This document shows, piece by piece, positions 4,354 to 64,000 of a DNA stretch of 64,000 nt. Position 1 is the stretch's first letter, and each line of letters begins with the position of its first letter. The notes under the pieces are model-generated. The model was not told the DNA's origin. It worked only from the letters and a program-made list of their open reading frames with translations, and searched no databases. Source of the stretch: Morinoia aosen (taxonomy: Eukaryota > Arthropoda > Malacostraca > Amphipoda > Talitridae); assembly GCA_030386875.1 (NCBI GenBank), contig CM059579.1:15224484-15288483 (forward strand). The letters run 5' to 3'. A program made the translations under genes and the position numbers.

Positions 4354-4883
4354 AATTTGAGAACAACTCAACATGAGAACAATTTGAGAACAACTCAACA
4401 TGAGAACAATTTGAGAACAACTCAACATGAGAACAGTTTGAGAACAACTCAACATGAGAACAATTTGAGAACAACTCAACATGAGAACAATTTGAGAACA
4501 ACTCAACATGAGAACAGTTTGAGAACAACTCAACATGAGAACAATTTGAGAACAACTCAACATGAGAACAATTTGAGAACAACTCAACATGAGAACAATT
4601 TGAGAACAACTCAACATGAGAACAATTTGAGAACAACTCAACATGAGAACAATTTGAGAACAACTCAACTTGAGAACAATTTGAGAACAACTCAACATGA
4701 GAACAGTTTGAGAACAACTCAACATGAGAACAATTTGAGAACAACTCAACATGAGAACAATTTGAGAACAACTCAACATGAGAACAATTTGAGAACAACT
4801 CAACATGAGAACAATTTGAGAACAACTCAACATGAGAACAATTTGAGAACAGCTCAACATGAGAACAATTTGAGAACAACTTC
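4354..4883. repeat. 27-bp minisatellite, about 19 near-identical units
   Basis: Units read TTGAGAACAACTCAAC followed by ATGAGAACAAT, 27 bp in all. There are 19 full copies with only single-base variants (for example AACAGTTT for AACAATTT, CTTGAG for CATGAG). Because the period is a multiple of three, long frames stay open on both strands, so the open frames are by-products and not evidence of a protein. Homogeneity implies recent expansion or ongoing conversion. Confidence 0.9.
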
Positions 4884-15200: not shown

Positions 15201-18200
15201 TTCGTTAAACATTTTTCACTCATTTAATACATAGCATTGATTTAATTCTCTGGCAGCGATGAGTGAGTGAGACGTATATTGCAGAATGAATTTCCAAGGA
15301 ATGCCTGAGCAAGTGTCAACATCATATGTAAGTTGAAGTAAAAAATGTATGAAAGTTCACTGATCATCAAATATACAGAATGAACTTTTACGTAGACATG
15401 AGTTGAAACAATGTTAGAAAAAAGTTCTTGAACTCAAGGAAACAAAAAATAAATAAATCATCTGTTCAACTAGTTCTTTCAAATTGCGTCCAACAATTTG
15501 GTGTATGCCACGAAATAGAACGTAATGAAGTGCATAAGTGCACCCTTCTCTCCCTGATGGCTGGAGATGTCCTTAATCCACAAAATCTAGCGTGAATAAC
15601 TTTCAGCAAAACTCCAACAATCCGTGAAATGATCAATGAAAAATACGTTTGAGATCATCCATTACATCATAACTTCTGCGTAACTTGATTGGAAAAATGA
15701 TTGATACAATTTCATAATCACCAATTAAACTCGCATAAAGTAGTTCGAGTTGAATTGCTTTGCGAATTAGGTGAGAAGGAAAAATATTTAAATTTCATTT
15801 CATTGTAGATAATTTAACACTGTATTGCGGCTCTTATGTTATACACAGTGAATTATAAAACAAGGTTGATGTCGTTAGTTATTTTTTCCCAAAAAATGGT
15901 ACCAGATGTTGAAATTTATGTTATCTTGCTCTGGAACAAAATTATTCAGGAATTTAGGCATGTTCATGAATAAAATATGTGAAGAATAGTTAACTGAGCT
16001 CATAGGAAATAAATTTATAATAAAGCATAGTCAAATTGAATGGTTTTTATCCTAGTAAATTAACGAAGCCCCGTAGAAAGTTATGTCGTAGCGTTAGTAA
16101 CATTTCAAAAAAATCTTCATGACACGAACTCAAGTACTCATAACCTTAACACTCATAACTCATATAGTCATAACTCAAAAAACGAAGCAATTCACAGATT
16201 CAAAACGGCGCCCGCTATCTCCTGTTGACTGTGTAATAAGTTGGAGTGAAAGTGCATTTAACAAATGAAAAAACTCTGACTCACTGATTTCTTTTTCAAG
16301 GAGGTACTTCCTCAGGTCCTCGAATACTTCATTACTTTCGGTTGTGTATAAAATGCCACGGAGAGATATGCAGTTTTCCTGAGCGCTGGACCAGTCCATT
16401 TTTCGCGACTCGATGTAGAGGCAACCAGCACTAGTGGTTTCGAATGGCTCAAAACAACGTGTCAGGTTTTCTGCTCACATTGAAAATGAAATATTTTCAA
16501 GCATAAAATGTTACGAGTGGGATTTTTTCTAACATCTATTTCGAGTTAAAAGCAACTTAATATAAACAAGGGGTCATACAGCTTTGGTATTTTTATGCAA
16601 CTCGTATTACAAATTTAGAGAAGTTTTTTTTAAGGGTTATTTGTATGAAATTACACTGCGTGCCACTTTAAAGGGAAATGGTTATTAACGAGAAGCATGT
16701 TATCAGCACATACTTTATTTTATAGAAGAAATCATGAGTAGTTTGACGAATACCATTATTCCGAACATCGTTATCATGCATTATGTCAATGATTCCCATA
16801 TTCTGCCATGAAAAATCGTATCTGGACTAAGTACAGCAAAATCTATCAGTTTCTGAAGTTTTTTGGAAAAAAACGTTTCAAGTTTAGTTATTGAGTTACG
16901 AAAGAAGATTATGAAATATAACACAACCTGTCACTCATTAGGTTTGTTGCTTCTACAAAGTCAGGCAAAAAGTTGCAGCTATCAAAGAACGAAACTAATT
17001 CCGACGCAAAGAAATCTTAACTCTACAACAAAGTACATTAAGAGCAATGTTTATGCTCAAGAATTTACCAATAAATCACGAAGCTCGCTCAACGTTGTGT
17101 AGGAACAAAGCCTAGAGCTTCTCCGAACAGCCACTTTAATCTGCAGTGATAAAGTGTGTATTCGTTCATTGGGCACGTTCAATGAACACAACTTTCGGTT
17201 TGACAGTACCCGTCGTGCAGTGCATTAAAGACCAGAAGCCTGTTAGTTAATTAAGGTTACTATCTGATGTGCCACAAGAGAATTACAGAGCCTATGTTTC
17301 CTCGAAGAAAATATTGTGATAGTGAGGTATCTCGGGTCGATGTAGTGACATGTTTGTGAGTTTTCACAATTCCCTGATAGTCTACGCAATTTATTCCCTC
17401 TCATTCTCCTGACAATTATGATTCTAACATGGTGCAGGACAGCATACCTCTCGGCAGTAGTTAGAATCCTGTGTTGCATGTTTTGGGTTGAAGGAATATC
17501 TAATGGCACCGCTAACTCACAATATCAATCTTCCATGGAACCTGATTCAAATTACTATGCTCGAACTCCGTCCGGAAAGACACTTAAAGAACTGTGTATA
17601 TAGTAGAGATTACACAAAAATTTGTTCAATTTTCAAAATTCTTGAAACAAAACAACCTTAAAAGAATATTACAGTTGTTTGAATTTTTCTCGTATCAGTT
17701 TTCAGTTCATTTTTCATTAACTGGTAAAATCGTTGCACAATTTCTTGAAGAACTTTATGAAAAAAAGGTAGCGCTATAACTCCGAAACATTTCCGAATGT
17801 TGATATCAATGATACCTATGAAAATGAAGTTGATTAAAGCGATTCAAAAACTTTCCATCGCAGAATGCAAAAAATTCGGAAAAGTTCATGTAATTATACG
17901 ATCGAATGTGTTATTTTTCATAAAATCTAAAACAGTTAGACAAGGAAAATAAAAATATAGCTATGCAAAACGAATAAGCGTACTGTGAAGGAAAAAAGGG
18001 TTCAAGTACACACAGCTAATTACGGTGAAAGACATCGACAGTTTATGTAAGACTAAACGGCAGGCAAAAAAACTTTGGGAAGAGCGATTTTAATATATCA
18101 GCTATCTTCGAGCCCAAGAAAGTGGAAGCTTCGAAGCACTACATAAGCACTGACCATAAAATCACAAATAGGTTTCAGGAGGTTGAGGTTGTTAGGGGAA

Positions 18201-21200
18201 GGCGATACTCTCAGCCTAACCTTAAATGGTCCTGTAAAGGTTCTTTCAAAAATTTGAAATATCTATTTCAAAATGTCACCTTTGAGTTTGATTCCATCTT
18301 CAGTGCACATGAAGGCCTGATCACCGTCACCTGTGAAGGTGGTGTTGATGTCGACGAAAGTGCCGTTATTGAGGCAGCAGCCTGGAACTATGCACGGTAT
18401 TGACATTACAAATTTGCATGTAAAAAACTTGATCTTAGTATTACTAAGACACTGCTTGAAATTGCGGAATATTATGTGGGCCGTTTGTAATTTGCATTCA
18501 AATTATGTACCTAAAAGAATTTTGGCATTGCCCTAAATACAATTTCGTTCCGAAGCAAACACAATTTTGCGCGTCTTAGTCACAACACAATTGCAAAAAG
18601 GTGCGTTATTAACATTATGCATTTATCAAGGTATTGTTACACACTTTTGTGTATCATGGACTCACACAAATGTGTCAACTGTGACACTATTGACGTTAAT
18701 CTGGTCTATTTCACATACGGATTTCATTTTCTCAGACTTGTCTGTGAATACACGGAAGGACTGACGCTGTCAAAAAAAAAATCCCAAACATTCTAATATT
18801 TCAGTGGAAAATTATATACATTCCTATCACGAATTTAAAAACTACTCATGACTTAGCGGAAATATTTTCTCCTGATGAAATGTAAATATATTGCTTGAAT
18901 ATGTCATGTGTAATCCAATAAGATCAAGATCCAAGTTTCTTTTGAATAACAGTTTGACACACACAAGTGTGTCAAAAACTCTGTGAGCGTGAAGTTGTAC
19001 TGCGGATGTAAATACATTGTTCATTTAATTGATCATCTTATACAGCACTGTAATTTTTCAGTAAAAATAGCTTCAGGTACATTAATTAATAAGCCGCGAG
19101 TATTTGTAAATATTCCGAATTATTTTCTGTGGTCATTAGAAGCAATCAAATCTAACGATCACACTGTAGAGCGAATAATATGTTGTTCTGGAATTATTAT
19201 GAATGCATTTTATAACTGAATAAAATCCAGATTTGCCAGTAATTTTTTAGTAGAGAATTATGCGAACTAGTCTTAACCTGTGACTGCACAATCATTGGTA
19301 ACATGAATACCGATGATTAAAAAATAAATATATAAAAAATATTAAGAGTTTCCCTCCGGATGCAATGAGACAGACTTGAAAAAAATGTTTTCCAATGTGA
19401 CCCGATAACATTTTTCACTATCCAAGTATATTATATTTTATATTTTATATTTTAAAAATGTTATATTTTATTCAGTGCTGCGTTTTCGTCGACTAGGTAC
19501 GCAGCACGACTTCATAAAAAATTAGCTGAACGCTCTTTGTGCATTTTTTAAAACAATTTTGCTCGGTTGATGCTGTATAAAAGGGAAGAAGCGTACGAAA
19601 GATGAAGGCTGTTGAGTAAAAAAGAATAATTGACGAGTAGGGAAAAAAAGATTCATAAGTATTTTATGTATTTTATATTTAGTTTACTGAGAAGGTACAC
19701 GAACTAAATTCAACGATATTTTGCACAATTAAGCCTAGAAAATCACTTAGCAGTGTAGAGGTATTGGTGGATTGCACATGCATAGGCATGAAAGCGCACC
19801 TCAAAGCATTGATGTGCCGTGACTTTTTTCGTGATGTTCCGCCGTCCTCCAAAGCGGCGCGACTTGCCTATTTATTTCAGTTCTTATCCCTTTTTCTTTA
19901 CGAGGCGATCTCTGGTGTGATCACACCAGATTTCAACTCATCACGAGAGAAGTGAACTTTTTGCCAAATTCATAGAGCATAAATTAAGAAAAATAACAAA
20001 AAAAAAGTAAAGTACAAAAGTATGAATGAAGATAAACAAAAAACTGTAATTTTTTGCCGATGGACACCAATGAAAAATGTCAAGTGGTTGTCATTGTGGC
20101 CCTCACCTTTATATTGGACGAAGAAGTAATACCGTATTTTTATGAAATACTTTCACGTTTCTTTTGCATGTTTTTCCTCTGCTCAATATCTCACGATTAG
20201 ATTAAATTTAAGCCTCCTTTACCATAATAAAGTTGTTCCAAAGGTAGGAAGGGCGAAAGCAGTATGAAGGTTAGGGAACGGGGTTTCAGTGCGCAAGGTG
20301 GGTTTGCGCACAAGATCTCCTGCGCACAGTCAACAAGTGAGGAAAGAAGTTCATGAAAGAAGGTAAAAAGTTAAAGAAAAAAGTAGTAGGCGCTTAAGAA
20401 CAGGACTGAAGTGAACCGAAAGAAGTTGGTCCGAAACAAATCAAAAAACCTATTCTATTTCAATAAATCCAAGACCTACTAAACCGTCAGCTCGGGACTT
20501 CATATTTTCCTTATTGGAGCGCTTAATTTCTTCCTAAAATTGTATTTACATGCCCCTGGCAGGTCATTATTTCAGGATTAGGAGAAGACTTGTCTCACAA
20601 TATCCTAAGCATGATCTCCGGTTACACAATAACTTGTCCTCCAGTGTCCTCAGGACTCGCATAAGCAACATAAACAGCGTTGAAAATACGTAACAGAGCT
20701 CTAAGTAAAGGCGAGATTCTTAATACAGACTAAGTTACTAGTTAGTCCAGTTCCACCAGTACACCGAAAACTTCAAAATTGTTTAAGAAAAAACTGCGTG
20801 TAACTGTATCACTGTTTTCCAACAGCGATTGCTACTGCTGTTGTTATCATTATCAACGCACTTGTGTTGTAGGTTCATTGTTTCGACTCATAAAGCGTAG
20901 ATAACACTAGGCGGCCTCAGTGATGCTAGTGAGAGTCAAAATTGGGTTAGATTTAGTTAGTCGTAAAAGAATGATAGTCCACTTCACAATTTTATTTCGA
21001 TGAAAGCGTAAATGTAGATTGCTTATATTAATATTCTTACTGTTAACACTATTATTCCCTGGAACCCAATTGATAGGCCAAATTTATGCAGTGTTTAACT
21101 TCGAGGAATTTTGTTTAATTAGAAGGCATATTTTTTGAATGTGAGATAAAAGTTATGCTGACTTGATCCGTGGGGTACTTCGAATCTTCCCTTCCTCCCT

Positions 21201-24200
21201 TGTGGGGCGGTAGGTCTCCGCCGTAGTTCGGGTGCCGCATAGTTTATTCTCTTTATGCTTGGGAAGATGAACTTTTGAAGCACCACTAGAATGTGTTATG
21301 TAACCAAAAATTCACCTCCTGACCTCAGGTGGCTGGTCGGGAGTAGACGGGACTCGGCTTAATTCTTGTTGGTCCTCCCCAGAAACACCCCGATATATTT
21401 TGCACTTTCGTATGCTCCAAAACGTTACCTCTGAGTTTGGTTCCATTTTCGGTGCATGTAAAGGCCTGGTCACCGTTGCAGGCGAACGTGGTGTTGATGT
21501 CGACGTAAGAGCCGTTATCGCGGAAGCAACCTGAAGTTAAACACGAAAGATATTGAGGAAAATAATTTTTCTTTAATCGAATGTTCATAAGGAATTTAAA
21601 AACGAGGAACACTGCTCATAGGTTTATCATTTAATATTACACATCGTCATATCTAAACGTTTCGGAATCCAGCTCCATCTTCAGTGAGTACAGTCTGAAA
21701 AACATAGAAAGACAAAAAGTTCGTCAGACATGTTTAAAAAGAAGGAAAATTAATAGAAAATCTCATGTAAAAACTTCCAGCGGATAAGAACTATTCATAC
21801 TGTCTAAAACGGCTTTTTCTTTGGATATGTACAGAGATTCCAAAATTCTTAGTTCCGAATCATTAAAAGCATTGCACATTATTTCAAATTGATTTTCAGA
21901 GACTCCAGCACCACACTGCTCTGCATGGAGTCGCACAGAAGAATGAGGCAGTTGCGCAAGAGGCCTCCCGGTACGATGGCTTACTCCATGATGCTGGGCA
22001 ATCCTTATGTAAAACGGCAAGGTCGTCATACCGACGTAGCCTGATGTACACTGTACACAACTAAAATTGTAAACTAAGGACGCCCTCATTTGCTGTGGAA
22101 GTACATCTTTATACCTAAAAATGAGCCTATTTTAAATGAATTGACAGAAATGTAAAAAAATTATTTACAAATGTACCGTTAGGAGAAACCATCAACATAT
22201 TAATAAAGTCTTTTCTCGTTACACCAGCAGATGTAATTTTTGGTTTCACCCAAAATCATTTCAAAACCTTGCTTGAATTGTCGGTTATGAATTCAGTTTT
22301 CATCTTTGCTAATAAACTGTATAAGAAAGTAGAGGGCCTTGGTATGGGTCTCCCGTTGGGGCCCATTTTTTCGAATATATTCATGTGCCACAGGGAGACA
22401 AAGTGGCTTGATGATTGTCCCCTGGATTTCACGCCGAAGTTTTATCGTAGATATATTGACGACACTTTTGTATTGTTCAGAGATCCTAGCCATGTTCCAT
22501 TATTTCTCGACTACTTGAATTCTAAACATCATTCCATAAAATTTGCTGACGAAACCGAAAATCATGATTGTATTCCTTTTTTAGATGCTAATGTTGCAAG
22601 AACCGGTCAGACTTTCACCCCCTCTGTATACCGAAAACCTTCGTTCTCAGGTCTGGATTTAATTTTTTTTAGCTTCTGTAGCTTCAGGTTCAAAGTGAAT
22701 GTAATTAGGACGCTTGTAAACAGAGCTTACAATATTTGCTCCAATTTTAACAACCTTCACAATGGATTCAATTTCCTGCACTATTTTTTCCGCAACAACG
22801 GGTTTCCTTCTTCTGTAATCTACACTTATGTTAAGAGGTTTTTGGCAAAAAAGTGTTCGAGAGTTAGTGCCAATGTCGACCCTTTACAATGTTTGTATTG
22901 AAGTTTTCCATGCTTTGGCCAGTTGTCTGAGAAAATGTCTAGAGATTTGGAATTGCTTTTCAATCGCTATTTTCCTGACATAAAATTGCGCCTAATTTCT
23001 GTCAATTCATTTAAAATTGGCTCATTTTTTCGATTTAAAGATATACTTCCAAAGCTAATAAGGGCGTCCTTAGTCTACAAATTCAGTTGTGTACAGTGTA
23101 CATCAGGCTACGTCGGTATGACGACCTTTCCGTTTTATATATAAGTGTTGCCGAGCATCGTGAAGTAAGCCATCGTACCGGGAGGCCCTTGCGCAACTGC
23201 CTAATTCTTCTGTACGACTCCATGCAGAGCAGTGTGGTGCTGGAGTTTCTGAAGATCAATTTGAAATAACGTGCAATGCTTTTAATGATTCGGAACTGAG
23301 AATTTTGGAATCTTTGTACATAGCCAAAGAAAAACCCGTTTTGAACAGTATGAACAGTTCCTATCCGCTGGAAGTTTTTACATGAGTTTTCTACCAAATT
23401 TTCTTCTTTTATAACATGTCTGACCAACATTTTGTTTTTTATGTTTTTCAGACTTTACTTACTAAAGATGGAGATGGACTCCGAAACATTTAGTTTTGAC
23501 GATGTGTAATATTAAATGATTAACCTACGAGCAGTGTTCCTCGTTTTTAAATTTTTAATAAACATGGAAGGAATTAAAATTTTCTATTTCTGGGGATAAT
23601 TTTGTTGAAGTGAGATTTATTTGCAATTGAAGGCCCACTATTCCTTTCATTAAAAGTATGAAGTGTTTGACTTGCTTATTCACACATATATAATGTAAAA
23701 GATTGAAGTTTAGCCTTTCGCACAATCTCAAAAGAAATAAAAAAGCAGGAACAGTAACTCTCAAATTGAACATTATATCCTAATAAAATAAGAGAATTAA
23801 AAAATCGAACGTTTTGACTCCTAAGTTCATCTTCAGTATCTGAATTTTTTCAAACATGAAGTCCATTTGCAATGTATTTGAAAATTAACAAGCTATTTGT
23901 AACGGATAGGAAAATTGCGTGTCGTTTAAAACCGGCTTGTCTTTCATGATAAAAAGAGATTCTAGGATACGGAGATCTGTTGGACTAGATGCAGTAGCAA
24001 TAATATTTAAATCGTCTAATCATCATTCACTTCTCTGCATGAGAGCTGACTGCAGAGTGAGGAGAAGCTTTCAAAGGCAAGGTCGTTCAATAGCTCCGTC
24101 TAGCATGGTCAGTTACACGAACATGAAGGGATCTGGTAGATTGCCCAACGTATTCGGACCCACACTGTGTGCAACGGTACTGCAAACAATGGAAGAGAGC

Positions 24201-27200
24201 ATAGCCATAAGGATCTTATCTTAATAGTTGAAAATTGACTGCACTCTATATTTACTCAGTAAGATTGCTTTGAAATCAATGTTCATAAAATATTTCGATA
24301 ATACTGAAATGACGTCCTTTTTACCAATCGGAATAGTTGAAGAAGGAGGTCATTAACAGGTCATTAAAGAGGTCATTAGCAGCGCTCATATTGCATCAGG
24401 CAACTCTGCTGGTCTCAAATCTGGCACCACTATTGGCCCAACGACATGGCGTTTTGACGACGTCACAAAGTTAGTTTGAAATAAAGCCGTTGTCTTGGCT
24501 AGCCGAACAGTGTATTTTCCCCCATAGAAATGACGAGACCTTGTGTCCTCTACTCTGCTCAACAGAATGCACGTGCCCCAACAGTAATACATAACTAAAT
24601 TATGCTAATTGGTAACACATGGTCATGGTCAACCAAACAGTTGGTTAGTAAGTTATATTGTAGTGTGCACGACACATCAAAAATGACGGCCCATTATTGA
24701 CGGGATTCGTTATTTTCTTTAGACGAGTTTCCCAGATGTGGAAACATATCCATCCTAATAGAACCCCCGATTGAAATATTCCTGTACCTATTGACTAATG
24801 AAACTTGTATCACAGATTAGGCCATTAAGCATCCTTTGGAAGCGTGAAAGAGAAACAGACCAACCAATTTAATGTGGTCAGTGAGATATTAATTATAATA
24901 ACTTAAGAGAAATTATGCACAAAAAATATAAATTTATTTAGTTGTTAGTTAATTAATTACCAAATTTATTTATAAAAGAGATACCTGACGTTTTATTATA
25001 TAAGCATGACTATTTAGCACCGTTGAAATTACTCGGCCAATATTATCATAAACGTAGGTGGACCCAAAAAAATATTCCAACATAACCTATTCTAGCCTAT
25101 CGTTACGTTTCCTACACTAATCAATCACACCATTCTTACGTAATTTAGTTGTCCATAACCTATTCAAGCCAATCTTCACCCAACCTACGTTGATCTAACT
25201 ATTACATTCATATCCTATCCTAAAAAGGAATTTCTAATGTACCTTACCTCGGCTAACCCGGTAGCAACAGTCAACTGTAACTAAAATACCTATTGAAGCT
25301 CAAAGTGTAACGTACAGGCCGATGAAACTCAAGGAGACCCATAATATGGATTAATTTTATGGGTTTAAAAACACTGATGAAAATGTCATTATTTTGCGTT
25401 TGGTCGGCCAGTTTTTCTGATACTTCGCTCAAAAAAATTTTCAGTACTCGCCTAAGGTAAGATATTAATTAAAATTGGTTGACGAGCTCTAAGTACCACG
25501 ACAGTTGACTGTTGAATGAAGAAGTAATTGAATCGAGCGGAAATATGTAGTTTAAGAGAATCTGTGCTACATTCGTTCTTACAGGCTATTTATGAAAAAA
25601 TATTAATAAATTTTTTGATGATTTTGTAGCTTCAATTCTTATCTAAAAATACGAGTATCTATATACTTAATAGCAAAACTCAAAATTTGTGCGAGTCCGT
25701 TTGGAAAATTGGCTGAGTCTACATGGTCGAGTGAGGTATTAAATTGAAGCCACTGGTGTCTATATTTGCAGAAAACTATTTATTTAATTTTTTTTTAATT
25801 TTTTTTATTTTGATTTTTTTCTTCTTTATTTCTTTATTTTTTGATTATTTACTTTTTTTTTTGATTTTTATTTATTTTTTATTTATTTATTTTTTTTTCC
25901 ATTTTATTTTTTATATTTTTTTTATTTTTTTTTTTTTTTTTTTTTAATTTTTTTTTTATTTTTCTTATTTTTTATTTTTATTTTATTTTTTTTATTTTTT
26001 TATTTTTAGGCAAGTCGGACAACCCGATACTCGGGTTGAACCGGCTTAAGCTTAGCCGGTTACCGGAGGTAACCGGCTAGTGTATAGTTGATTTAACTCT
26101 GTCGTAACATTAATTAGCCCCTTATTGTTTTATCAAGTGTCACTGTTACACTAAGTAACTAACTACTCCAGGGACAAGCAGAATTATAATATAGATATAA
26201 ATCTGGAAGCCAGTTTGTGTGATTCTTCAATTCCTCTTTTCCCTCATCGTGGCGACGGTAGTGAGTTTTTGCCACAACACGGGTGGCGCATAGTCCAATC
26301 TCGTTATACTGCACATGCGAAAAAGGTTGAACTTTTGAGGCACCACGAGAAAGATGTGCTGACGTCAACCCTTCGTTGAAGAATATGGGGTTATTCGGGG
26401 AAGGCAGTGAGCTATGTCTAACCCTAGATGGTTCTTTTCGAGAGCATGCTGACATGCATTCATTTGCAATTCAGTACGTCACCTATGAGCTTGGTTCCAT
26501 TTTCGGCACACACGAAGGCCTCGCCCCTTGCACCTGCGAAAGTTTCATTGACGTCGACGTACGAGCTTTCGTTGAGGTAGCAGCCTGAAACTAAGAACGA
26601 GATCAACTTTTTATTTTTTATACAAATGAGCCTGGTGAAAATATGATTTCATCGTAATATGTCTGTCCGTGCAGGCTGTAAGTACATATGTCGTATGTAG
26701 GCTGCAATCAAACTCAAAAAATAGTTTTAAATATATTCACTACAAACGTTTCAGAATATATAGATTCCATCATGCGTGGAAAAAAACAGATTAATGAATA
26801 AAATAATTAAGTTCAAATAAAACATCAAATGAATACATTTCTGAAATAATTCGCCTATCTTTTAGAAACCCAAGAACGATAAAAAAATGAAATTTAAGAT
26901 CTTACTGAAGCCCGCCCCAAAGCCCACACGCTCATTCTCACTTGTACTAACACCCAAACACTCACTCGAATGTTAGGAAGGAATAACCAAGATGCATCGG
27001 AATACCGGTTCATATGAGATCTATTAATAAATGAATAATAATGCATATTTTGAAAATCCTTTTCATCATTTGATTTACAAAGCAAAGTGAAATTCTAAAA
27101 ATTTCAAGAGTGTCGATACCGCCGTGCGGTCGACGTGAGGGTTCGTGGAAAAGGGCTGCCTTCTGTGGAGCTAATTTTTATTCCGGGGCGCTAGCTTTTC

Positions 27201-30200
27201 TGCGCAGCTGCCCTTCCTGAGGTTTGTGTGGGAACCACCAACGCCGTAATCAGTCCGTTAGAGCGACAGAAAAGAATTTCTGTTAGTGCTGAACTACGGC
27301 GGTACCGTTAAAGTGAGATTTGTATGGATACGGCATAATCCAAAATTATTCCGCTTGGGCAACATAAATAATTTCTGTTTGTGCTGAACTACGGCGGTAC
27401 GGTTAGGAAGACGAGCAACAATCTGTGCTGCAATTAAGGCCTCTTTAGACGGTGCAGCACAAGCGACTCATTGATGCATCACGCATCACAAGTACTCGCA
27501 AAGGAGCATGCTGCTGCAGCAAAACACCGACCCGCCAAAGATGGATCCGTGATGCATACTCACATGCAGCACGCGAGGAGCACAGAGATCAAGTGTCCAG
27601 CAAGCAATGATTGAGTGAGGTTGTGCGTAATTGCGTCTCCCACTGATAATGGCCGCATCGTTTCCTCGGCGGCGCACGCAGCGACGGTCCACAAAAGAGC
27701 TTGGCGTCGCACATCCATCCCTCGACGCGTCTGAGCAGTAACTGACCTCCATTCGTGCTTCTCTCACTTCAAGTCACTTGCTCGGCTGCAGAATGCCGTC
27801 TACAAGCCCATGCAGCACAGATAAGCAAACTCATGCAGCCCTTGCGACTCTTTTGAGTATCTATGATGCATCGTCTTAAGAGGCCATTAGTCTGCTAGGG
27901 CTCCACAGGAAATTCCCTGATTTGTGCAAATACGACAGCGCCTTCCTTTAGACAAACAATGTGGAATAGTTTGTCCTCCCAAGGCGGTTCTTTAACCTCT
28001 TTTAGGCGAGATATCTTATTAGACTAAAGCCTGTATCAAATAGAGAAAGGAAACTTCTTTGACTTTAGGATCTGAATTGTTTGTTGCCGAATCTCTTTGC
28101 AGTGCCTCCAAAATACACAGATACAATTTAGCAAAAACAATTATTTATTTGCTTTTTTGCCAAAATAACGCTCATAAACATGAGTTACTGCATAACACGC
28201 AGGAGTACATTTAAATGTTTTGGCCATTCAGATAGGTAATCAATCTGATGCTCGAGTATTGAAACAAAATACAAATGAAACTTAAGGTCTAACTAAAGTG
28301 AATACACAGGTACACCATCCGCGCAGAGAAACAGACTTAGGCCGGTCACAAGGAACTGAACACTTAAAGAAAGTACCGAAGATTTTGGGTTTTTTAACAA
28401 AATAGACTCCACACCACTTGCGCTGCCTGACAAAGGGGTAATTAGAAACAGTTCAGACATTTGTAATAGAGGAGTGGGGTGACTGTTGGAGTGACCTGAA
28501 CGGGGACTGTTGAGCATAAATAGTTGAAAGAGAGTAGATCCAACATACGAAAAAAGATTCGCACCAGGCCCAAGAGCTCTCGTTTAAAATCATCCAAGTA
28601 ACGAAGGAACGATAAGCCAATGCTTATTTTTAGCTTTGGTAAGACCTAAGTTGCAGGAGGATAGAATATGTATGTTGTGGTCGAGGAAATTTCTAAGTAT
28701 TAGCCTCAAAAAAAATATTGTGTGCTAATTGCATATGAACGATTTCTGTGACAGTTTATCCTCTAGTGAAGTATTCGAAAATCTAAAACATTCCATGCAG
28801 TAAGATATCAACACACGATTTGACACAACTGTTGTAGAGACAGTTGGAATAACTGGTATTTAGGCCCTTAAAAGTGGATTCCTGCAAAGTAAAGAAATAT
28901 TTCAAGAGTTCAAATTTTTCACAGAGGCGTTTGAAGTCGTCGTTTCATCCTTTTCTCATTTTCAATCGTAATATTATTGTTGAGATTGTTTTTCTAGCAA
29001 AAGTTCATTTCTGAAGATATTATTTATTGTATTATTCTATATATAATGAAATACAAGAACTCTGAAACGTTTGAGGGCAAATAAATTAATTCCTATGATG
29101 AATTCATCCTAATTTTGACAGTTATTTTCCAAAAGCATCTCATAATTAGCAATAAAAATACTTCTCAAACGAATCTTGGCGTTAACATTTAAGCCCAGAT
29201 ATCAAGACAGTTATTTAACTACTTTTTGACCTGCTACAACGAAACAGATTTGTGTGATATGAACTACTATTACAAACAAATCTTAGAATTATTGCTAAGA
29301 CCTAGAGTTAAAGACTGTAATCTAGCTCTTTTTTTTGAACTACTACGATAACTTCACTGGACGACAGTAAATTTTATCACAGAGAAATTACGTACAAAAA
29401 ATGTTCAATAGAATATTTTTCAAAAGACTCTGAGTCGAAATGATGCAATGGTGTGAAGGTAGCATCGTCGCTCAAGCCAAGTAGAGTTTCCTTCTTTTTA
29501 TGAAATAATTTTATTGGTGAAGGTAATCATACATAAGCACTTTCCAGGCAGAGAGTTCTGTCGATCAGTGTTTGTGAACAATAGTACGACAGTTTTCATG
29601 GTCACAGTCATTGAGCAACGATTCACTGCATTAAATTCACCCGTTTTCTGAGAAAGGAACTTACTACTGCAGTTGGTTCCTCTGATCTTCAACTAATTGA
29701 GAACAAATTCAATGGGCTCAAAAAATTCTATTCAAGTATACTGAATCAAAAGCATATGAAAATAGTTACAGTTTAAATTGTTTGCTTTCCACTATTATTT
29801 TAAATTTTGTAACTAGAATGAGTTTGAGATAAGTTTTGAACCTTAGTTCAACTAATTACTGGTGATTTTTTATGAGATAATTTTAAAATTTTCCGAAGAG
29901 ATGAAAAAAGTAGATGACTGAGACAATAATTACGTTCAAGATGTGTTTCAATTAAACATGTGCCCTTAATTTTTCATTCTGTCAAAGTTCATCCACCAGA
30001 AAACTCATTGAGCCTTCACACTTTGAAGCATGGAATAAAGTACTCAAAGTAATTTCAATTGGTTTTCTAGTGGATTTTCTAAAATTGAAACCTTGTTAAG
30101 AAATATAAGAGCCTTACGAACGAAGGGAACTGAGAATAAAGGAATACTTACGAACGAAAGACTGTCTAATCTTGCAGGTAGTGGCACCAACGGTACCGTT

Positions 30201-30500
30201 CCATCGAGCAGCCACACTCTTCAGGGCATCATCGCCCCACGTCCGGCACTGGGCCCCAGGGCGGTCTTTTGAGAAGCAGGAGGCCTGGCCCCACTCCAGC
30301 GCCTGCGATACGGCGAGGCAGTGAAGGGAGGAGTCCGTGGAGTTCAACCACACTCGTCCTCCACTGTCCATCATGGTAGCTTCGTCGAGTACAGATGAGA
30401 CCCACACCTCTGTGGAGTGAGACTTGCCTTGTTTACTCATCGCTCCACAGACAGCACAAGTCAAAAGACCGACAATCTTGAGTAAAATTTCATGCCCCAT
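11996..30500 (-). CDS. Gene A: secreted modular C-type lectin, six exons, 355 aa
   Basis: Exons on the minus strand are 30500-30152, 26584-26483, 21530-21429, 18381-18280, 16470-16285 and 12222-11996. All introns are GT-AG and all internal junctions are phase 1. The joined frame is open for 356 codons and ends in TAA. The predicted product starts with a hydrophobic signal peptide (LLKIVGLLTCAVCGA, about residues 6-20). It then has a Cys-containing segment that loosely resembles a PAN/apple domain, three 34-residue modules, and a C-terminal C-type lectin domain with all six long-form cysteines. The family is known for extracellular glycan recognition, often in immunity. The Ca-site motif reads D-P-N, and the usual WND is LGD, so calcium-dependent binding is uncertain. 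Gene B is its tandem paralogue. Introns hold a Penelope-like insertion and other A-only insertions. The exon join is my inference from splice signals and phase; no transcript was available. Confidence 0.8.
12425..13190. mobile_element. Penelope-like 3' fragments in inverted pair (intron 5, gene A)
   Basis: A minus-strand fragment (about 12,425-12,770) and a plus-strand fragment (about 12,815-13,190) point away from each other. Both read through the end of a GIY-YIG endonuclease region (RILEALHIF on minus, YDLRILE on plus), and both end in the element's GGAGCTGGACTCC-type 3' motif. The middle has an inverted repeat around GATTGCGTACTGC. It is a broken, 5'-truncated fossil, and the same arrangement occurs in copy B, so it predates the duplication. 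Confidence 0.65.
13688..13741. repeat. Perfect 54-bp palindrome
   Basis: Two 27-bp arms, beginning GAAAATTCACACTATAATCG, are exact reverse complements with no spacer (centre 13,714/13,715). In copy B (about 37,757-37,783) only one diverged arm is present. It lies in intron 5 of gene A. Confidence 0.97.
16285..16470 (-). CDS. Gene A exon 5: N-terminal half of the C-type lectin domain
   Basis: 186 nt, phase 1-1, acceptor GAGCAG, donor GTGAGT. It encodes the long-form start (LTRC, then SAGCLYIE) and the MDWSSAQENC helix, then an LRGILYTT stretch and the second helix with DLRKYLLE. These positions match the beta1-alpha1-alpha2 part of the C-type lectin fold. It is 71% identical to gene B (18 differences in 62). 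A decayed third relative is at 61383-61567. Confidence 0.8.
18280..18381 (-). CDS. Gene A exon 4: 34-residue module 3
   Basis: 102 nt, phase 1-1, donor GTGACA. Key residues are CCLNNGTFVDIN, TTFTG, DQAFMC and EDGIKLK. It has three Cys, two of them adjacent, and sequons NGT and NTT. It is the most divergent of the three modules, with F for Y and I for T at otherwise shared positions. Confidence 0.75.
20811..21428. other. Highly similar intronic block (copy A)
   Basis: Continues into exon 3. Against 45,411-46,034 the first 172 bp show only three differences, and the rest of the block is also clearly more alike than neighbouring intron sequence. It has no open frame conserved between copies. 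It may mark a recent gene-conversion tract or a constrained intronic element. Confidence 0.6.
21429..21530 (-). CDS. Gene A exon 3: 34-residue module 2
   Basis: 102 nt, phase 1-1, donor GTAACG. Key residues are CFRDNGSYVDIN, TTFAC, DQAFTC and TENGTKL. It has three Cys and sequons NGS, NTT and NGT. Its acceptor lies only about 48 bp from the edge of a Penelope-like insertion, so its upstream intron sequence differs from that in gene B. Confidence 0.78.
21580..23565 (+). mobile_element. Penelope-like element with inverted terminal copy, copy A only
   Basis: The plus-strand part encodes a reverse transcriptase fragment with GLPLGPIFSN and the catalytic YIDDTF box (about 22,269-22,901), then a GIY-YIG endonuclease region (CVQCTSGYVGM, about 23,050-23,390). 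A minus-strand copy of the endonuclease end occupies about 21,590-22,120 and starts with the same tail in inverted orientation (21,590-21,750 against 23,400-23,560). Such inverted truncated copies are known for Penelope-like elements. The reverse transcriptase is 5'-truncated and the element is broken. Copy B has an uninterrupted empty site near 46,145, so insertion followed the duplication. Confidence 0.85.
23790..24330 (-). mobile_element. Second Penelope-like fragment (GIY-YIG end)
   Basis: Reading minus, the segment YRCTQCGSEYVGQSTRSLHV and later DLRILESLF are typical of the endonuclease domain of Penelope-like elements. It differs from the neighbour at 21,580-23,565 and belongs to another family (closer to the element at the right edge of the window). 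Old, broken, 5'-truncated, and absent from copy B. Confidence 0.7.
24331..25770. other. Copy-A-specific intronic DNA, unidentified
   Basis: Only the end of this stretch (from about 25,590, around GATTTTGTAGCTT) matches copy B (about 46,380). The rest has no partner there. It includes three AGGTCATTA phrases in tandem near 24,345-24,378. No coding motif was recognised. Confidence 0.5.
25780..26010. repeat. T-rich low-complexity tract
   Basis: About 230 bp almost entirely T with some A on the plus strand. It is missing from copy B. On the minus strand it is an A-rich tract directly following the hairpin cluster at 26,020-26,078. Confidence 0.9.
26020..26078. repeat. Cluster of three perfect hairpins next to the T tract
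   Basis: Stem 1 is CAACCCGA/TCGGGTTG (26,020-26,038, loop TAC). Stem 2 is AACCGGCT/AGCCGGTT (26,039-26,061). Stem 3 is AGCCGGTTACC/GGTAACCGGCT (26,054-26,078, loop GGA) and shares its left arm with the right arm of stem 2, so the two are mutually exclusive. Absent from copy B. Confidence 0.85.
26483..26584 (-). CDS. Gene A exon 2: 34-residue module 1
   Basis: 102 nt, phase 1-1, acceptor TTTCAG, donor GTGACG. Key residues are C-Y-L-N, SSYVDVN, ETFAG, EAFVC and ENGTKL. It contains three N-glycosylation sequons (NES, NET, NGT) and two Cys. The same module recurs in exons 3 and 4. I do not recognise the fold; the C..N.SYVD....F....F.C..NG spacing faintly recalls half of a single VWC domain. Confidence 0.78.
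   Translation of the reverse strand, partial: AATSTKARTSTSMKLSQVQGARPSCVPKMEPSS
26735..26800 (-). mobile_element. Possible Penelope-type 3' tail relic (A)
   Basis: Minus strand reads CATGATGGAATCTATA then TTCTGAAACG, resembling the degenerate tails of the Penelope-like fragments elsewhere in the window. A partner occurs at 47,100-47,150 in copy B, so it predates the duplication. No coding part remains. Confidence 0.3.
27276..27404. repeat. Pair of direct repeats (GTGCTGAACTACGGCGGTAC)
   Basis: Two copies of about 36 bp, 27,276-27,311 and 27,369-27,404, 93 bp apart, within a GC-rich block that copy B lacks. Confidence 0.75.
27438..27885. mobile_element. 448-bp non-autonomous TIR element
   Basis: Ends are GGCCTCTTTAGACG and CGTCTTAAGAGGCC, imperfect inverted repeats (13 of 14 match). 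Flanks ATTAA/ATTAG may be a mutated 5-bp target duplication. The interior has subterminal GCATGCA and CATGCAGCAC motifs in both orientations and is GC-rich. No transposase frame. The superfamily is not certain. The region 27,105-28,430 has no partner in copy B. Confidence 0.6.
30152..30500 (-). CDS. Gene A exon 1: signal peptide and N-terminal Cys domain
   Basis: 349 nt, donor GTAAGT. It encodes the start MGHEILLKIVGLLTCAVCGA and a soluble segment with Cys at CLAVSQ, ASCF, AQCR and TTCK, plus sequons NST and NGT. The spacing loosely recalls PAN/apple domains, but this assignment is weak. The GC content is clearly above that of the surrounding AT-rich DNA, which fits coding sequence. About 85% amino-acid identity to exon 1 of gene B (17 differences in 116). 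Confidence 0.8.
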
Positions 30501-39300: not shown

Positions 39301-42300
39301 CAACACGCTAAGCTGATACAGCCCCTAATACTGAAGTGAACTTCAGCATTGGGTCAAGTGACCTCTAGTGATCTAATCTTGATGTAAGCTTCAGTTTTAG
39401 GTTAAAACTGAAGTGAATTTCAGTATTAGGTCAATCTAGCAGTTAACTTCAGTATTATATGTTCTAAAAATAAGAAAATAAGTGAAATATTCTGCCGATA
39501 CAGCCTAAAAATAAAAAAAATATCCCTTATATTAGTATAATTTGAAATTCAATAAATCATGAATATATGGCTCTGATTTTTCGTTAAAATTAATCACTCA
39601 TTTAATACATAGCATTGATTGAATTCTCTGGCAGCGATGAGCGAGAGAAGCGTATTTTGCGGAATGAATATCCACGAAATGCCTGAGCAAGTGTCAATAT
39701 CGTATGTAAGTTGCAAATAAAATGTATGGAAGTTCTCTGTGCAAACGATCCACAAACACACAAAAAACTTATACGTAAACATGAGTTGAAACAACTTTAT
39801 GAAGAAAGTTGTTGTACCCAGCGGAAAATAGAAAATATTCACCTGTTTAACTAGTTATTTCATACTGCGCCAAACAATTTAGTGCATTTAATATAACAAA
39901 ATAAAACGTGCATAAGTGCACCCTACTCAACCCAATGGTTGGACCCCAAACCCCAACAAGCCTCGAAATGATTATTGAAAAAATAGTTTGAGATCATCCA
40001 TAACATCATGATTTTTGAACAACCTAATTTGAGAATTGACTGGTACAATCAAATTATCATTAATTAAAATCGCATAAAGTAGTTGGAGTTGAATTGCTTT
40101 GGGAACTAGGTACGAAGGAAAAATATTTACATTTCATTTAATTGCAGATATTAAATTGAATTATAATTATAACTTAGCGTTGACGTAAATAGAAATTTTC
40201 CCCAAAAAATAGTACCAGATGTTGAAAATTACGTTTCTCGTTATCTTGTTCATGAACAGAATGATTAAAAAATAAGGCATTGTTAAAAAACAAAAGAAGT
40301 TAAAAGTAGTTAATTCAGCTCATAAGAAATAAGTTTAAAACGAAAGACAGTCAAATGAAATAACTTTTTTCCTAGGAAATTTACAGAGCAAAGTTATGTC
40401 TTAGCGTAAGTAATTTTTTGAAAATATCTGACACTCGTAACTCAAGTACTTGTAACTCAAACACTCATAACTCAAGTACTTATAAATCAAACACTCATAA
40501 CTCATGTACTTATAACTCAAACACTCATAACTCAAGTACTTATAACTCAAACACTCATAACTCAAGTACTTATAAATCAAACACTCATAACTCAAGTACT
40601 TATAACTCAAACACTCATAACTCAAGTACTTATAACTCAAACACTCATAACTCAATTACTTATAAATCAAACACTCATAACTCAAGTACTTATAACTCAA
40701 ACACTCATAACTCAATTACTTATAAATCAAACACTCATAACTCAAGTACTTATAACTCAAACACTCATAACTCAATTACTTATAAATCAAACACTCATAA
40801 CTCAAGTACTTATAACTCAAACACTCATAACTCAATTACTTATAAATCAAACACTCATAACTCAAGTACATATAACTCAAACACTCATAACTCAAGTACT
40901 TATAAATCGAACACTCATAACTCAAGTACTTATAACTCAAACACTCATAACTCAAGTACTTATAAATCAAACACTCATAACTCAATTACTTATAAATCAA
41001 ACACTCATAACTCAAGTACTTATAACTCAAACACTCATAACTCAATTACTTATAAATCAAACACTCATAACTCAAGTACTTATAACTCAAACACTCATAA
41101 CTCAAGTACTTATAAATCAAACACTCATAACTCAAGTACTTATAACTCAAACACTCATAACTCCAGTACTTAGAACTCAAACACTCATAACTCAATTACT
41201 TATAAATCAAACACTCATAACTCAAGTACTAATAACCCAAACACTTATAACTCAAGTACTTATGACTTAAACTCTCATAACTCGAAAAATGAAGCCATTC
41301 ACAGATTCAAAACGGCACTGGTATCTTTTGTTTTCTGAGTAATAAGTTGCAGTGAAAGTGCATTTCAAAAAATAACTCAACTCTGACTTACTGATGGTAT
41401 TATTGAGGAGATAATTCCTCAGGTTCTCAAACTCGTCATTACTGTCGGTTGTGTACAAGTCGCCTCCGAGCAATATGCACGTCTCTTGAGCACTGGACCA
41501 GTCCATTTCTTGTGACTCAATATAGAGGCAGCCGGCACTAGTGGCTTCGAATGGCTTAACACAACTTGTCAGGTTCTCTGCTCGAATTGAAGATGATATT
41601 CTAATGTGAAAAACATTAAGAACGGGATTTTTGTAGCATCCATATCGAGTTTAAGAGCACCTTAGTGTGAATAAGGAGTCATAATGCATCGGTATTTTTA
41701 AAGCAACTCATATTACATACATAGAGAAGTATTTTTTATGGGTTATTTGTATGAAATTACACTGGGTGCACCTTGAAAGGGAGTTGTTTATTATCGAGAA
41801 GTATGTTATCAGCGCATTCTTCATTATTAGAAAATATCATAAGTGGTTTGGAGAGTCTTATTATCCCGTACATGGACATCATGCATTATGTCGATGATTC
41901 ACATGCTCTGCCATGAACAATCGTATCTGGAGTAAGTATAATAAAGTCTATCAGTTTCTGCCTCGAAAAAAAATCAAATTTGAGTTGTTGAGTTACGAAA
42001 GAAGATTATGAAATACAACACAACCGGTCTCTCATTAGGTTTATTGCTTCTACAAAGTCAGGCAAAAATATGAACGAAACTAATTACGAAACTAATTAAA
42101 GAACAAAACTAATTACGATGCAAGGAAATCTGAACTATACTTTAAAGTACATTAAGAGCAATGTTTAGGCACACGAATTAAACAAAAATCATGAAGCTTA
42201 CACAACGTTGTGTAGGAACAAAGCCTAGAGCTCCTCCGAACAGCCACTTTAATCTGCTGTGATAAAGTGTGTATTCGTTCATCGGACATGTTCAATGAAC

Positions 42301-45300
42301 ACAACTTTCGGTGTGACAGTACCCGTCGTGAAGTGCACCAAAGACTAATAGCCTGTGAAGGTTACTATCTGATGTGCCACAAGATAATTACAGAGCCTTT
42401 GTCTTCTCGAAGGAAATAATGTGATAGTAAGGCATCTCGGATTGTTGTTGTGACATGTTTTTGAGTTTTCACAATTCCCTGCTTGTCTACGTAATTTATT
42501 CCCTCTCATGATGCTGACAATTCATGATTCTAACATGGTGCAGGATAGCATACCTCTTGACGGTAGCTCGAAATCCTGTTTAGCACGTATTTAGGTCGAA
42601 GTTATTTCTTATGGCATCACTGACTACCAATATCAATCATCCATGGAACCTGATTCAAATTACTATGTTCGAACTCCGTCAGAAAAGACACTTAAGAACT
42701 GCGTGTATATTGGAAATTACACCAAATTTTATAACGATTTCAAAATCCTTGAAGCAAAGCACCTTTAGAAAACATTAAAGTTGCTTAAATTTTTCTACTA
42801 TCAGTTTTCAGTTTATTTTTCACTAACTGCTACAGTGAAAATGCTGCACACTTTTTTCAATAATTTTATTCGACCAATTTTTTGGAAATATTAATCATCT
42901 ATAACAGATCGTTTTCAAAATATACAACAACCTTAAATAAATAATAACTACGAAACATTTCCGAATGTTAATATCAATGATAGCTATGAAAATGAAGTTG
43001 ATCAAAGCCCTTTTACAACTTTACATCGGAGAACGTAAATAATTCTGAAAAGTTCATGTATTTATACAAATGTGTTATTTTTCATACGATCCCAAACAGT
43101 TAGAAAAGGAAAATTAAAATATAGCTATGCAAAACGAATAAGCGTACCGTGAAGGAAAAAAGGGTACAAGTACTCACAGATAGTTATTTTGCGAGACACG
43201 GACAGTTTATAAAAGACTCTAAATGGTAGGCAAAAAACTTTGGGAAGAGTGATTTTAATACTTTAGCTATCCTCGAGTCATAGAAAGTGGAAGCTTCGAG
43301 GCACTACTAGGACAGAAGCACTGACCTTGAATTCACAAATTGGTTTCAGGAGGTTGAGGTTTTTAGGGGAAAGCGATACTCTCAGCCTAACCCTAAATGG
43401 TCTTGTAAAGGTTCTTTCAAAAATATAAAATGTCTACGTTCATTTCAATACGTTACCTTTAAGTTTGATTCCAACTTCAGTGCACACGAAAACCTGATCA
43501 CCGTCACCAGTGAAGGTGGTGTTGATGTCGATGAAAGTGCCGCTGTTGAGGCAGCAGCCTGGAACTATGCCCGGAATAACATTACATATTTGTGCTTAAA
43601 AACTTGATCTTAGTATTACTAAGAAACTGCTTGAAATTGCAGAATATATGTGGGACGTTTGTAACTTGCATTTAAATTATGTACTTGAAAGAATTTTGAC
43701 ATTGCGCTAAGAACAATTTCTTTCTGAAACCGATACACTTTAGTGCGCCCACTTGTCACTAAACAACTGCAAAAAGCTTGCGCCATCAGCATTCTGCATT
43801 CATTGAGGTATTGTGACACACTTTTGTGTGTCATGGACTGATAGGACACACACAGATGTGTCAACTGTGACACATTTTCAGGAAAATTCGGGAAAAAAAC
43901 GCTGAAATCTCTTGTGTGCATTTTTTTTAGAGGGAAGAAGCCTGAAAAAGACGAAGCATGTTGAATAAAAAAGAATTGTTGACGATAGGGACGTAGGGAA
44001 AAATGAGATTTATTAGAATTGTATGTATTGTACATTTCGTTTGCTTAAAAAGTTCACAGAATAAATTCACCATTATTTTCCACAATTGAGCTTTGACAAT
44101 CACTTCGTAGTGTGGAGGCATTTATTGATTGAGCGTGCATAGGTACGAAAGCGCTCCTGAAAGCATGGGAGCGCGGTAACTCTTCTCGTGTTGTTCCGCC
44201 GTCCTCTGAAGCGGCGCCACCTACCTATTTCGTTTATTTCTTAACTCCTCTTTCTTTACGAGGTGACAATTTCTGGTACGATCACACCAGATTTTATCTC
44301 ATCACGAGGAACGTGAACTTAGTGCTAAGTTTGTGGAAAATGAAGTAAGAAGGAAAACAAAAAAGTTTAATTTTTTGCCGACAGACGCAAGTGAAAAACG
44401 CAGAGTGGTTGTCATTGTGGCCCTCACCTTTATGTTACACAAAGTAATACCGTATTTTATGGGATACTTTAAACAATTTAAACAATTCATCTATCACAAG
44501 TCATACCGCAGTAGATTTTCTCTTAAGTCTAGTACAATGGACATATTTGAGTGTACGAGTAGCTACTTGTGGGCCCGAATAAGTTCGGGGACTTCTAGGG
44601 CAACCTATCATCAAAGTTATTTTTAAAGTTTACAGTTATGTTTAACTTAATTTACTTAACCTTGGGGCACACAAGACTGATCATGTTTAGATGCTTAATT
44701 TTACAAAAAATAAATAATATGAGCTATATGGGAGCAGTATATTCAAGAAAAACGATTAGGTGCATAAGATTCAAATTATTATCATGGCAGATTACCTTGT
44801 CGTGATAAGTCGTATTACATGAGAAAAAAAAGGTTGCAATGAAATACCATTTGTGATTAATGTTTGGATAAGAAGAAGGATTCAAGTTCTGTTCTGATAG
44901 CTTTGTAGGAACTTTTCACGTTTCCTCTGCTCAATATTTTATGATTTGCTTAAATTTAGGCCTCCTTTACCATAATGAAGTTGTTCCAAAGGTAGGAAGG
45001 GTGAAAGCACCATTTAATTAGAAGGTTGGGGAACGGGGTTTTTATATGCAAGGTGTATTCGCGCTCAAAATCTATTGAGCATTGCATCAACAAGTTAAGA
45101 AGGAAGTTTATGAAATAAGGTAATGAGGAAAAAAAAAATTTTAAACGCTCAAGAACAGGACTGAAGTGAACCGAAAGAAGTAGGTCCGGCACAAAACGAA
45201 AAACCTAATCTATTTAAAAAAAACTCTTGTTACACAACACCTTGTCTCCTTAGTGTCTGAACTTGCATAAGCAACATAAACAACGTTGAAAATACGTAAC

Positions 45301-63261: not shown

Positions 63262-64000
63262 AAAAGTTTCGAGCATCAGGCTCATCATCAGAGCAAGTTG
63301 TCTGAAAAGAACAAAACCAAGATGAATAGATAAAAACATACGGGGAATGAACACAGAAGTAAAAAAAATACTACTACTAAAATCAAGAGGAAACTACGTA
63401 CAAAGGGTGGGCAGCATTAGTTTCATTAAGAGGCGGCTAAGTTTGAAAATGTATAAGGACTCTACAATTCTTAAATCATTCTGATGGCTGGCTGAAGCTA
63501 CAATGCTAAAAACCGCCCTGCACATCGGAGCCACATTGTTCACAAGGGAGGCGCACCGAAGAGATGGGCAAGAATCCCTCCAGTCCGGCTACTACGTCCA
63601 GCATGCTCAGCTTCTCTGACGCCCAAAGTTCTGCAGGTCGAGCCTACATAACTAGATGCACATTGTGCACAACGAAATTCATATAGAAGAGAGCGGCGAA
63701 TGCTGGATGGTAATTTTTCTTTGTAGTTGAAAAACGAATTTATGCTAAATTTGTTTGTAAGATTATTTCTGAAATAAAAATCAGGTAAATATGAGTGAAA
63801 AATTTGGACAAGCTCTGTTCTCATTTGTTCAGATTTAGGCCCAAAGTATAGAAAGGTAAGTATAATCTCTAAGTATAATCTCTTTCTTGTACTATCGACG
63901 AGATTGGCGGGTGAGCTATATTTGGAATTTAAAAAACGTTTTATCAAAGATTGAACTAAACCAACAAGAATACCATTATTCATGAAAAATTGAACGAAAA
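63262..64000 (-). mobile_element. Penelope-like element, 3' part, running off the right edge
   Basis: Minus strand encodes the reverse transcriptase end (YFGPKSEQMRTEL, FHSYLPDFYF) followed by a GIY-YIG endonuclease (RCAQCASSYVGSTCRT, EAEHAGRSSRTG), then DLRIVESLYIF after a frame interruption. The open stretch extends to 63,983. The 3' end carries a CTGATGA...GAGC/GCTC...GAAAC motif at 63,266-63,291. It is a different family from the element at 21,580. At least one break is present; the 5' part is outside the window. Confidence 0.8.
63266..63291 (-). ncRNA. Hammerhead-like ribozyme core in Penelope-like 3' end
   Basis: On the minus strand CTGATGA is followed by T, a GAGC/GCTC stem with loop CTGAT, and GAAAC. 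This matches the conserved core of hammerhead ribozymes, which are known in the terminal repeats of Penelope-like elements. Stem I, stem III and the cleavage triplet could not be settled by eye, so activity is unproven. Confidence 0.45.

Follow-up and report, generated by a model that had tools for sequence, protein, structure and literature searches.

Two tandem amphipod C-type lectin genes, each with three single-exon modules that are probably FnI/VWC-like

What is the 34-residue module that two neighbouring genes each encode three times, every time in a single exon of 102 nucleotides (nt), and is that exon used as a fixed part or as an optional one? The question arises in a 64,000-nt stretch of the amphipod Morinoia aosen (contig CM059579.1, positions 15,224,484 to 15,288,483; hereafter the window, to which positions refer unless a contig is named), whose minus strand carries both genes (gene 1 and gene 2; Table 1). 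The sequence searched was the 1.99-Gb genome in 29 contigs, the window being part of contig C24. Probably, the locus holds two tandem secreted C-type lectins, each composed of a signal peptide, an N-terminal domain, three minimal modules resembling the fibronectin type I (FnI) or VWC fold and a lectin domain, with the modules normally spliced in as a stalk and their number changing between genes. Every module would correspond to one class 1-1 exon, the common arrangement in extracellular mosaic proteins; all three would be spliced in, most likely as the normal state, and would form a short, disulfide-stabilised, N-glycosylated and β-rich stalk that separates the lectin head from the N-terminal domain; and duplication or loss of whole exons would change the module number, giving rise to paralogs with zero to three copies.

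All six module exons of the window are exactly 102 nt long and are bordered by an AG acceptor and a GT donor, with the split codons contributing two nt at the start and one at the end of each exon (phase 1-1). They thus show what characterises class 1-1, namely one domain per exon, phase 1 introns on both sides and a length divisible by three. These readings bear out the preliminary description of the locus, which had reported three 102-bp phase 1-1 exons in both genes and one symmetric exon per module, skippable without loss of frame. Its span (18280..26584) is exact in its outer coordinates for gene 1 and leaves gene 2 outside, and its numbering of exons 1-5 has to be shifted: the modules are exons 2-4 of six, and the start-codon exon lies further upstream. 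When the window was scanned with a hidden Markov model of the module, the six copies scored 65.9-73.3 bits, while no other place exceeded 11.3 bits, a gap that at the sequence level sets them apart from chance matches; different copies searched against each other by tblastn gave expectation values (E) of 1e-7 to 4e-19. The same borders (exactly 102 nt, AG...GT, phase 1-1) were found in 30/30 module exons read genome-wide, one of which, on contig C5, carries a stop where the first cysteine would be. The symmetry of the module exons is in itself nothing special, because all five introns of both gene 1 and gene 2 are of phase 1; the first lectin exon is likewise symmetric.

The number of modules varies between genes, from 0 to 3. 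The exon-1 domain is present in 27 full-length copies (E < 1e-46) plus fragments, clustered on three contigs, with in-frame stops in 4/27; a module search with E up to 10 found 38 places, all within these cluster regions and three with stops, all on C5, while a second module query gave 40 places, one of them apparently by chance. Completely read stretches from exon 1 to exon 5 contain no module in one paralog (loci L082 and L087), one module in another (L086) and three in both window genes, and this variation (0, 1, 3) entails no change of frame; in the zero-module gene, the end of exon 1 and the start of exon 5 are both of phase 1 and the frame continues. Judging by exon positions only, some paralogs would have two modules, and further genes with three would lie on C24 at 15.30 Mb and on C6 at 48.84 Mb. 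In a nucleotide tree of 32 module exons, which leaves out the stop-bearing C5 copy, the modules form clades by position across four genes (a, 0.97; c, 0.98; b, weaker, 0.73), and the triplication is therefore older than these gene duplications. The lectin cluster at C24:15236482-15547141 has a partner in opposite orientation at C6:48705038-48892659, with near-identical modules such as the pair at C24:15302144 and C6:48835158, and more copies lie on C5.

The consensus of the six window copies, G-C-x(4)-[GS]-[ST]-[YF]-[VI]-D-[IV]-N-x-T-F-x(6)-[AV]-F-x-C-[TA]-E-x-G-[TI]-K-L, revises the motif first proposed (C-x-x-N-x-SYVD..F....F.C.ENG): the repeated module is there, but SYVD occurs in only 4/6 copies and is replaced by TFVD or TFID in the last module of each gene. 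C26 and G30 are present in every one of the modules read (32/32), N13 and T15 in 30/32 each, and an N-x-S/T sequon at residues 13-15 in 29/32 (N13 is missing from two modules, T15 from one); presence of C2 was a condition of the script that counted the 32. In an aligned subset the sequon is found in 21/22 modules, against a mean of 0.29 after shuffling residues inside modules, figures that overstate the conservation of N13 and of the sequon as the alignment omits ten of the 32, including the two without N13. C2 and C26 are general, with a third cysteine at position 3, 18 or 20 in 15/22 aligned modules.

Two methods, a Pfam profile and a ranking of the predicted structure by Foldseek, put FnI first among the candidate relatives of the module. 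The Pfam family Fn1_2 (PF23003) is matched by 4/4 multi-module arrangements (E 6.3e-5, 1.0e-4, 7.6e-4 and 1.1e-3; 2.2e-4 for the gene 1 modules alone), is, in each of the four, the only Pfam family with E < 0.01 and was among the matches of 0/10 controls (nine shuffles and one reversal). AlphaFold2 modelling of the six window modules, with a predicted local distance difference test (pLDDT) score of 88, places two short strands before three longer ones, an order that we take to be that of the fibronectin type I module. In FnI, a two-stranded sheet is packed on a three-stranded sheet. The Foldseek comparison with the PDB has fibronectin FnI fragments, one of them described as a predicted model, at ranks 1-3 of 50 (probability 0.90-0.98), with a TM by query of 0.74-0.77 and a root-mean-square deviation (rmsd) of 3.0-3.2 Å.

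Several results nevertheless weigh against an FnI assignment. The Fn1_2 scores (19.6-23.5 bits) lie below the curated 27-bit cut-off; the best Fn1_2 stretch of gene 2 is module c continuing into exon 5; only 1/22 single modules matches the family (E 0.056); and one of the ten controls matched an unrelated family at E 0.0023, because of which an E near 1e-3 is weak by itself. Sequence searches of the PDB with three modules and with a 22-member profile returned nothing related and no fibronectin, the module model has a predicted TM (pTM) of 0.49, and the Foldseek E of the FnI fragments (0.24-0.79, 0.24 being the best of all) are not significant. In addition, the module has two to three cysteines compared to the four of canonical FnI; since the four-cysteine pattern is lacking and the cut-off is not reached, it is not a formal Fn1 member, and classical Fn1 gave no match in the Pfam scans of the modules. 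No match was found in NCBIfam, a prokaryotic library, and a whole-genome search with the Fn1_2 model, also without a match, is uninformative because its 70-position profile covers two exons here and 14 control genomes gave none either. Several of these results would also be expected of a module that is no FnI relative, deriving instead from a VWC subdomain or constituting a separate, lineage-only, small β module with two cysteines. We consider this unlikely, while giving it more weight because superposition distances favour VWC-type matches: the VWC domains of CCN3 and collagen IIA, a NEL protein and VWF/mucin D regions, all at lower Foldseek ranks, superpose more closely (1.3-2.1 Å) than FnI at a similar TM (0.66-0.79). 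The sub-threshold profile scores, the PDB sequence searches, the non-significant Foldseek values and the restriction of general cysteines to two are all in keeping with that possibility; on the other side, profile and structural ranking are two independent lines that name FnI first, no other Pfam family falls below E 0.01 in the four arrangements, the E of the VWC-type matches (2 to 9) are themselves not significant, and VWC had no Pfam match in scans of the multi-module arrangements and 22 single modules. Taken together, profile and model make it probable that the module is FnI/VWC-like in fold. The preliminary description had recognised no named domain and proposed a profile search and structure prediction; these have yielded Fn1_2 matches below the cut-off, an FnI/VWC-like model and no clear match to a known domain, so that its statement holds with respect to formal thresholds and yields where profile and predicted fold point to the FnI/VWC group, which supplies a likely name for the module that it could not place.

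The symmetry of the exons also raises the possibility of regulated skipping, by which each gene would produce lectins with zero to three modules and thereby tune stalk length or valency; the preliminary description had raised the idea in the form of splice isoforms with one to three modules. Every module exon read is symmetric, the ends of exons 1 and 5 are phase-compatible and a natural zero-module paralog joins the two in frame; moreover, intron sequence around 20 modules less than 80% identical to each other is conserved near the splice sites (~20-40 nt upstream, ~18 nt downstream) and drops to background beyond these stretches. Frame-preserving skipping of symmetric modules is, according to an excerpt of one paper, reportedly commoner in Metazoa (PMC8001218); the same source treats class 1-1 symmetry as the norm among extracellular domains shuffled in Metazoa and describes such modules as lending themselves well to exon skipping, so that symmetry, which exon 5 shares and which is the default for extracellular modules, is no evidence of skipping when taken alone. 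A further argument came from the donors, as G occupies position +5 in 1/32 module exons versus 10/10 exon-1 donors read; the weak module donors that this suggested found no support in U1 duplex energies. At 12 sampled module donors of three genes these amount to -5.9 to -8.0 kcal/mol, compared to -5.4 to -5.5 for exon 1 and -5.3 to -6.5 for exon 5 of three genes, and because the module donors are no weaker in predicted U1 pairing than those of the flanking exons, they show no sign of built-in skipping. The positional identity of a, b and c, which form position-specific clades across four genes, in turn suggests that all three modules are normally used. Skipping within one gene is possible, although we regard regulated skipping as doubtful and constitutive inclusion as the likely normal state. 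A spliced retrocopy, in the form of a contiguous, intronless copy, was searched for in the genome and none was found. As a separate observation, in 17/32 module exons genome-wide the acceptor is preceded, 6 nt upstream, by another AG, use of which could add two in-frame residues.

It could alternatively be supposed that the module exons are degenerating relics, in a cluster rich in pseudogenes, that lie outside the mature protein, which we find highly improbable. Besides the stops in 4/27 exon-1 copies and 3/38 module places, there are stops in several lectin exons (for example at C24:15411993), and the ratio of nonsynonymous to synonymous divergence (dN/dS) of the modules exceeds 1 in two of five comparisons, both involving the C6 gene (1.12 with gene 1; 1.83 with the 15.30-Mb gene, on 8 changes only). 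These ratios speak against strong constraint on a stalk as well: the modules are under moderate constraint at best, and selection may be relaxed or positive in some copies. On the other hand, all six exons are open and have AG/GT borders in both window genes, the modules of gene 1 and gene 2 differ by 7 synonymous and 12 other changes (dN/dS 0.46), comparisons with the 15.30-Mb gene give 0.58 and 0.51, and C26, G30 and the sequon are kept at the frequencies given above.

Comparison with known systems suggests that the proposed FnI/VWC-like stalk is ordinary class 1-1 modularity in kind and new in detail. Canonical FnI modules comprise about 40-45 residues and four cysteines in 1-3, 2-4 disulfides, and in fibronectin and tPA each of them is also one phase 1-1 exon. 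The modules of the window resemble them in their predicted two short and three longer strands, their top three structural matches and their only recurring Pfam match; they differ in having 34 residues and two general cysteines, in scoring below the cut-off and in superposing only at 3.0-3.2 Å. The likeness to VWC-type, NEL and VWF/mucin D structures, closer in superposition, is qualified by the fact that VWC domains have more cysteines than the module. PF23003 is presumably named after MIG-18-like nematode proteins, which are secreted, as the lectins described here would be. MIG-18 is described as acting at a basement membrane, where it serves the ADAMTS protease MIG-17 as a cofactor (PMC4856095); nothing ties the window lectins to a MIG-17 role, and here a C-type lectin domain is attached. 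Closer in overall plan is a shrimp mannose receptor with a fibronectin type II (FnII) domain, an invertebrate C-type lectin with an accessory module that, as far as the excerpted text goes (PMC10341498), shares a signal peptide, a small accessory module and a C-type lectin domain with the window genes, whereas the latter have modules that are FnI/VWC-like rather than FnII, in three one-exon copies, and a conserved exon-1 domain. The fibronectin EDA and EDB modules, according to the excerpted part of another source (PMC8471655), are alternatively spliced single-exon modules; they too have one module per exon and preserve the frame if skipped, but skipping is demonstrated there, while in the window genes it is possible in principle only. 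A lectin architecture of this kind was not described among the literature matches listed for fibronectin type I, C-type lectin and crustacean or for amphipod C-type lectins and genome assembly, and there was no match for lectin, fibronectin type I domain and arthropod, nor for MIG-18 and fibronectin type I; the papers listed for Fn1_2 had no bearing on the family, matching only the string FN12. Sister genes of a single species with 0, 1, 2 or 3 copies of one 102-nt exon form a natural series in which the link between symmetry, duplication and skipping becomes testable.

The remaining exons frame the modules in the same way in both genes (Table 1). Secretion is suggested by the signal-like stretch of exon 1, judged by hydropathy only, the predicted peptide being presumably cleaved. 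The exon-1 domain of gene 1 has no Pfam match; it has four cysteines common to both window genes, and no other part of the family is as well conserved. The joined exons 5-6 of gene 1 match Lectin_C (PF00059) with E 7.9e-10 and 39.9 bits (cut-off 22.6), a scan that covered gene 1, the lectin domain of gene 2 being assigned by similarity. The calcium/sugar site of C-type lectins typically has the motif EPN or QPD, plus WND; gene 1 has DPN and an LGD-like element, and the motif varies among the ten lectin exons shown, which include both window genes. By blastn, gene 2 matches gene 1 in collinear pieces over about two thirds of the latter, at 71-91% identity, and looks like its tandem copy.

Table 1. 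Exons of the two window genes and genomic locations of exon-1 copies
Feature	Position	Strand	Details
Gene 1 exon 1: start codon, hydrophobic signal-like peptide, ~96-residue domain	30152..30500	minus	349 nt, phase 1 donor C|GTAAGT
Gene 1 exon 2: module a (GCYLNESSYVDVNETFAGARGEAFVCAENGTKLI)	26483..26584	minus	102 nt, phase 1-1
Gene 1 exon 3: module b (GCFRDNGSYVDINTTFACNGDQAFTCTENGTKLR)	21429..21530	minus	102 nt, phase 1-1
Gene 1 exon 4: module c (GCCLNNGTFVDINTTFTGDGDQAFMCTEDGIKLK)	18280..18381	minus	102 nt, phase 1-1
Gene 1 exon 5: C-type lectin domain, first half	16285..16470	minus	186 nt, phase 1-1
Gene 1 exon 6: C-type lectin domain, second half, and stop codon	11996..12222	minus	
Gene 2 exon 1: start codon, signal-like peptide, N-terminal domain	48901..49249	minus	349 nt, phase 1 donor C|GTAAGT
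Gene 2 exon 2: module a	46848..46949	minus	102 nt, phase 1-1
Gene 2 exon 3: module b	46035..46136	minus	102 nt, phase 1-1
Gene 2 exon 4: module c	43457..43558	minus	102 nt, phase 1-1
Gene 2 exon 5: C-type lectin domain, first half	41392..41577	minus	similarity to gene 1
Gene 2 exon 6: C-type lectin domain, second half, and stop codon	36071..36300	minus	similarity to gene 1
Exon-1 copies	C24:15.25-15.55 Mb; C6:48.70-48.89 Mb; C5 at 1.63, 10.7, 14.2 Mb		

Divergence is uneven along the two genes and draws attention to an arthropod-like lectin family in which the 5' half is far more alike between genes than the lectin head. When the two window genes are compared, synonymous divergence (dS) comes to 0.086 for exon 1 and 0.114 for the modules but reaches 0.72 for lectin exon 5 (Fisher p ~1e-5 and 7e-5, from rounded counts). 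At the protein level, exon 1 of 26 other full-length copies is 82-91% identical to that of gene 1, and matches to lectin exon 6 located within the clusters on C24 and C6 are at 38-67% identity. In noncoding blocks, identity between the genes is 81% from 8.5 to 9.5 kb, 71-76% for the greater part of 9.5-16.2 kb, 80-84% from 16.1 to 18.7 kb (a stretch that takes in exon 5) and 80-91% around exons 3, 2 and 1, with low blocks of 72-74% at 19.6-20.2, 23.6 and 25.5 kb. The uneven divergence would be accounted for if the 5' half were being homogenised or if recombination took place near the modules; as the noncoding blocks show no clean step, this is a lead only. A bolder conjecture, for which we see little likelihood at present, is that the family serves as a recognition system that diversifies and has a stalk open to adjustment, the 5' half being kept alike while the lectin heads diverge, stalk length being set by module number between genes and possibly by skipping within them.

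Intron 5 of gene 2 contains, close to lectin exon 5, a 30-bp minisatellite of ~28 copies (40431-41283), which overlaps the long open frames 40376-41173 and 40422-41270 and is related to a stretch of gene 1 at 16127-16179; a 27-bp minisatellite of ~20 copies with 98% matches and open frames on both strands is found at 4354-4881. Fragments at 21763-23454 and 63382-63857 resemble what we take to be Penelope-type retroelements with a GIY-YIG-like part, and the former position falls in gene 1, where it separates module b from module a. Elsewhere in the genome, a small contig holds a mitochondrial COX1 that, under the invertebrate mitochondrial code, is free of internal stops; its protein looks like that of an arthropod, probably a malacostracan. 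A single 75.6-Mb contig carries seven long stop-free COX1 reading frames (C27:55303150-71643313; E < 1e-100); these are unlike the mitochondrial copies, which hold TGA, and look bacterial, suggesting symbiont or contaminant sequence.

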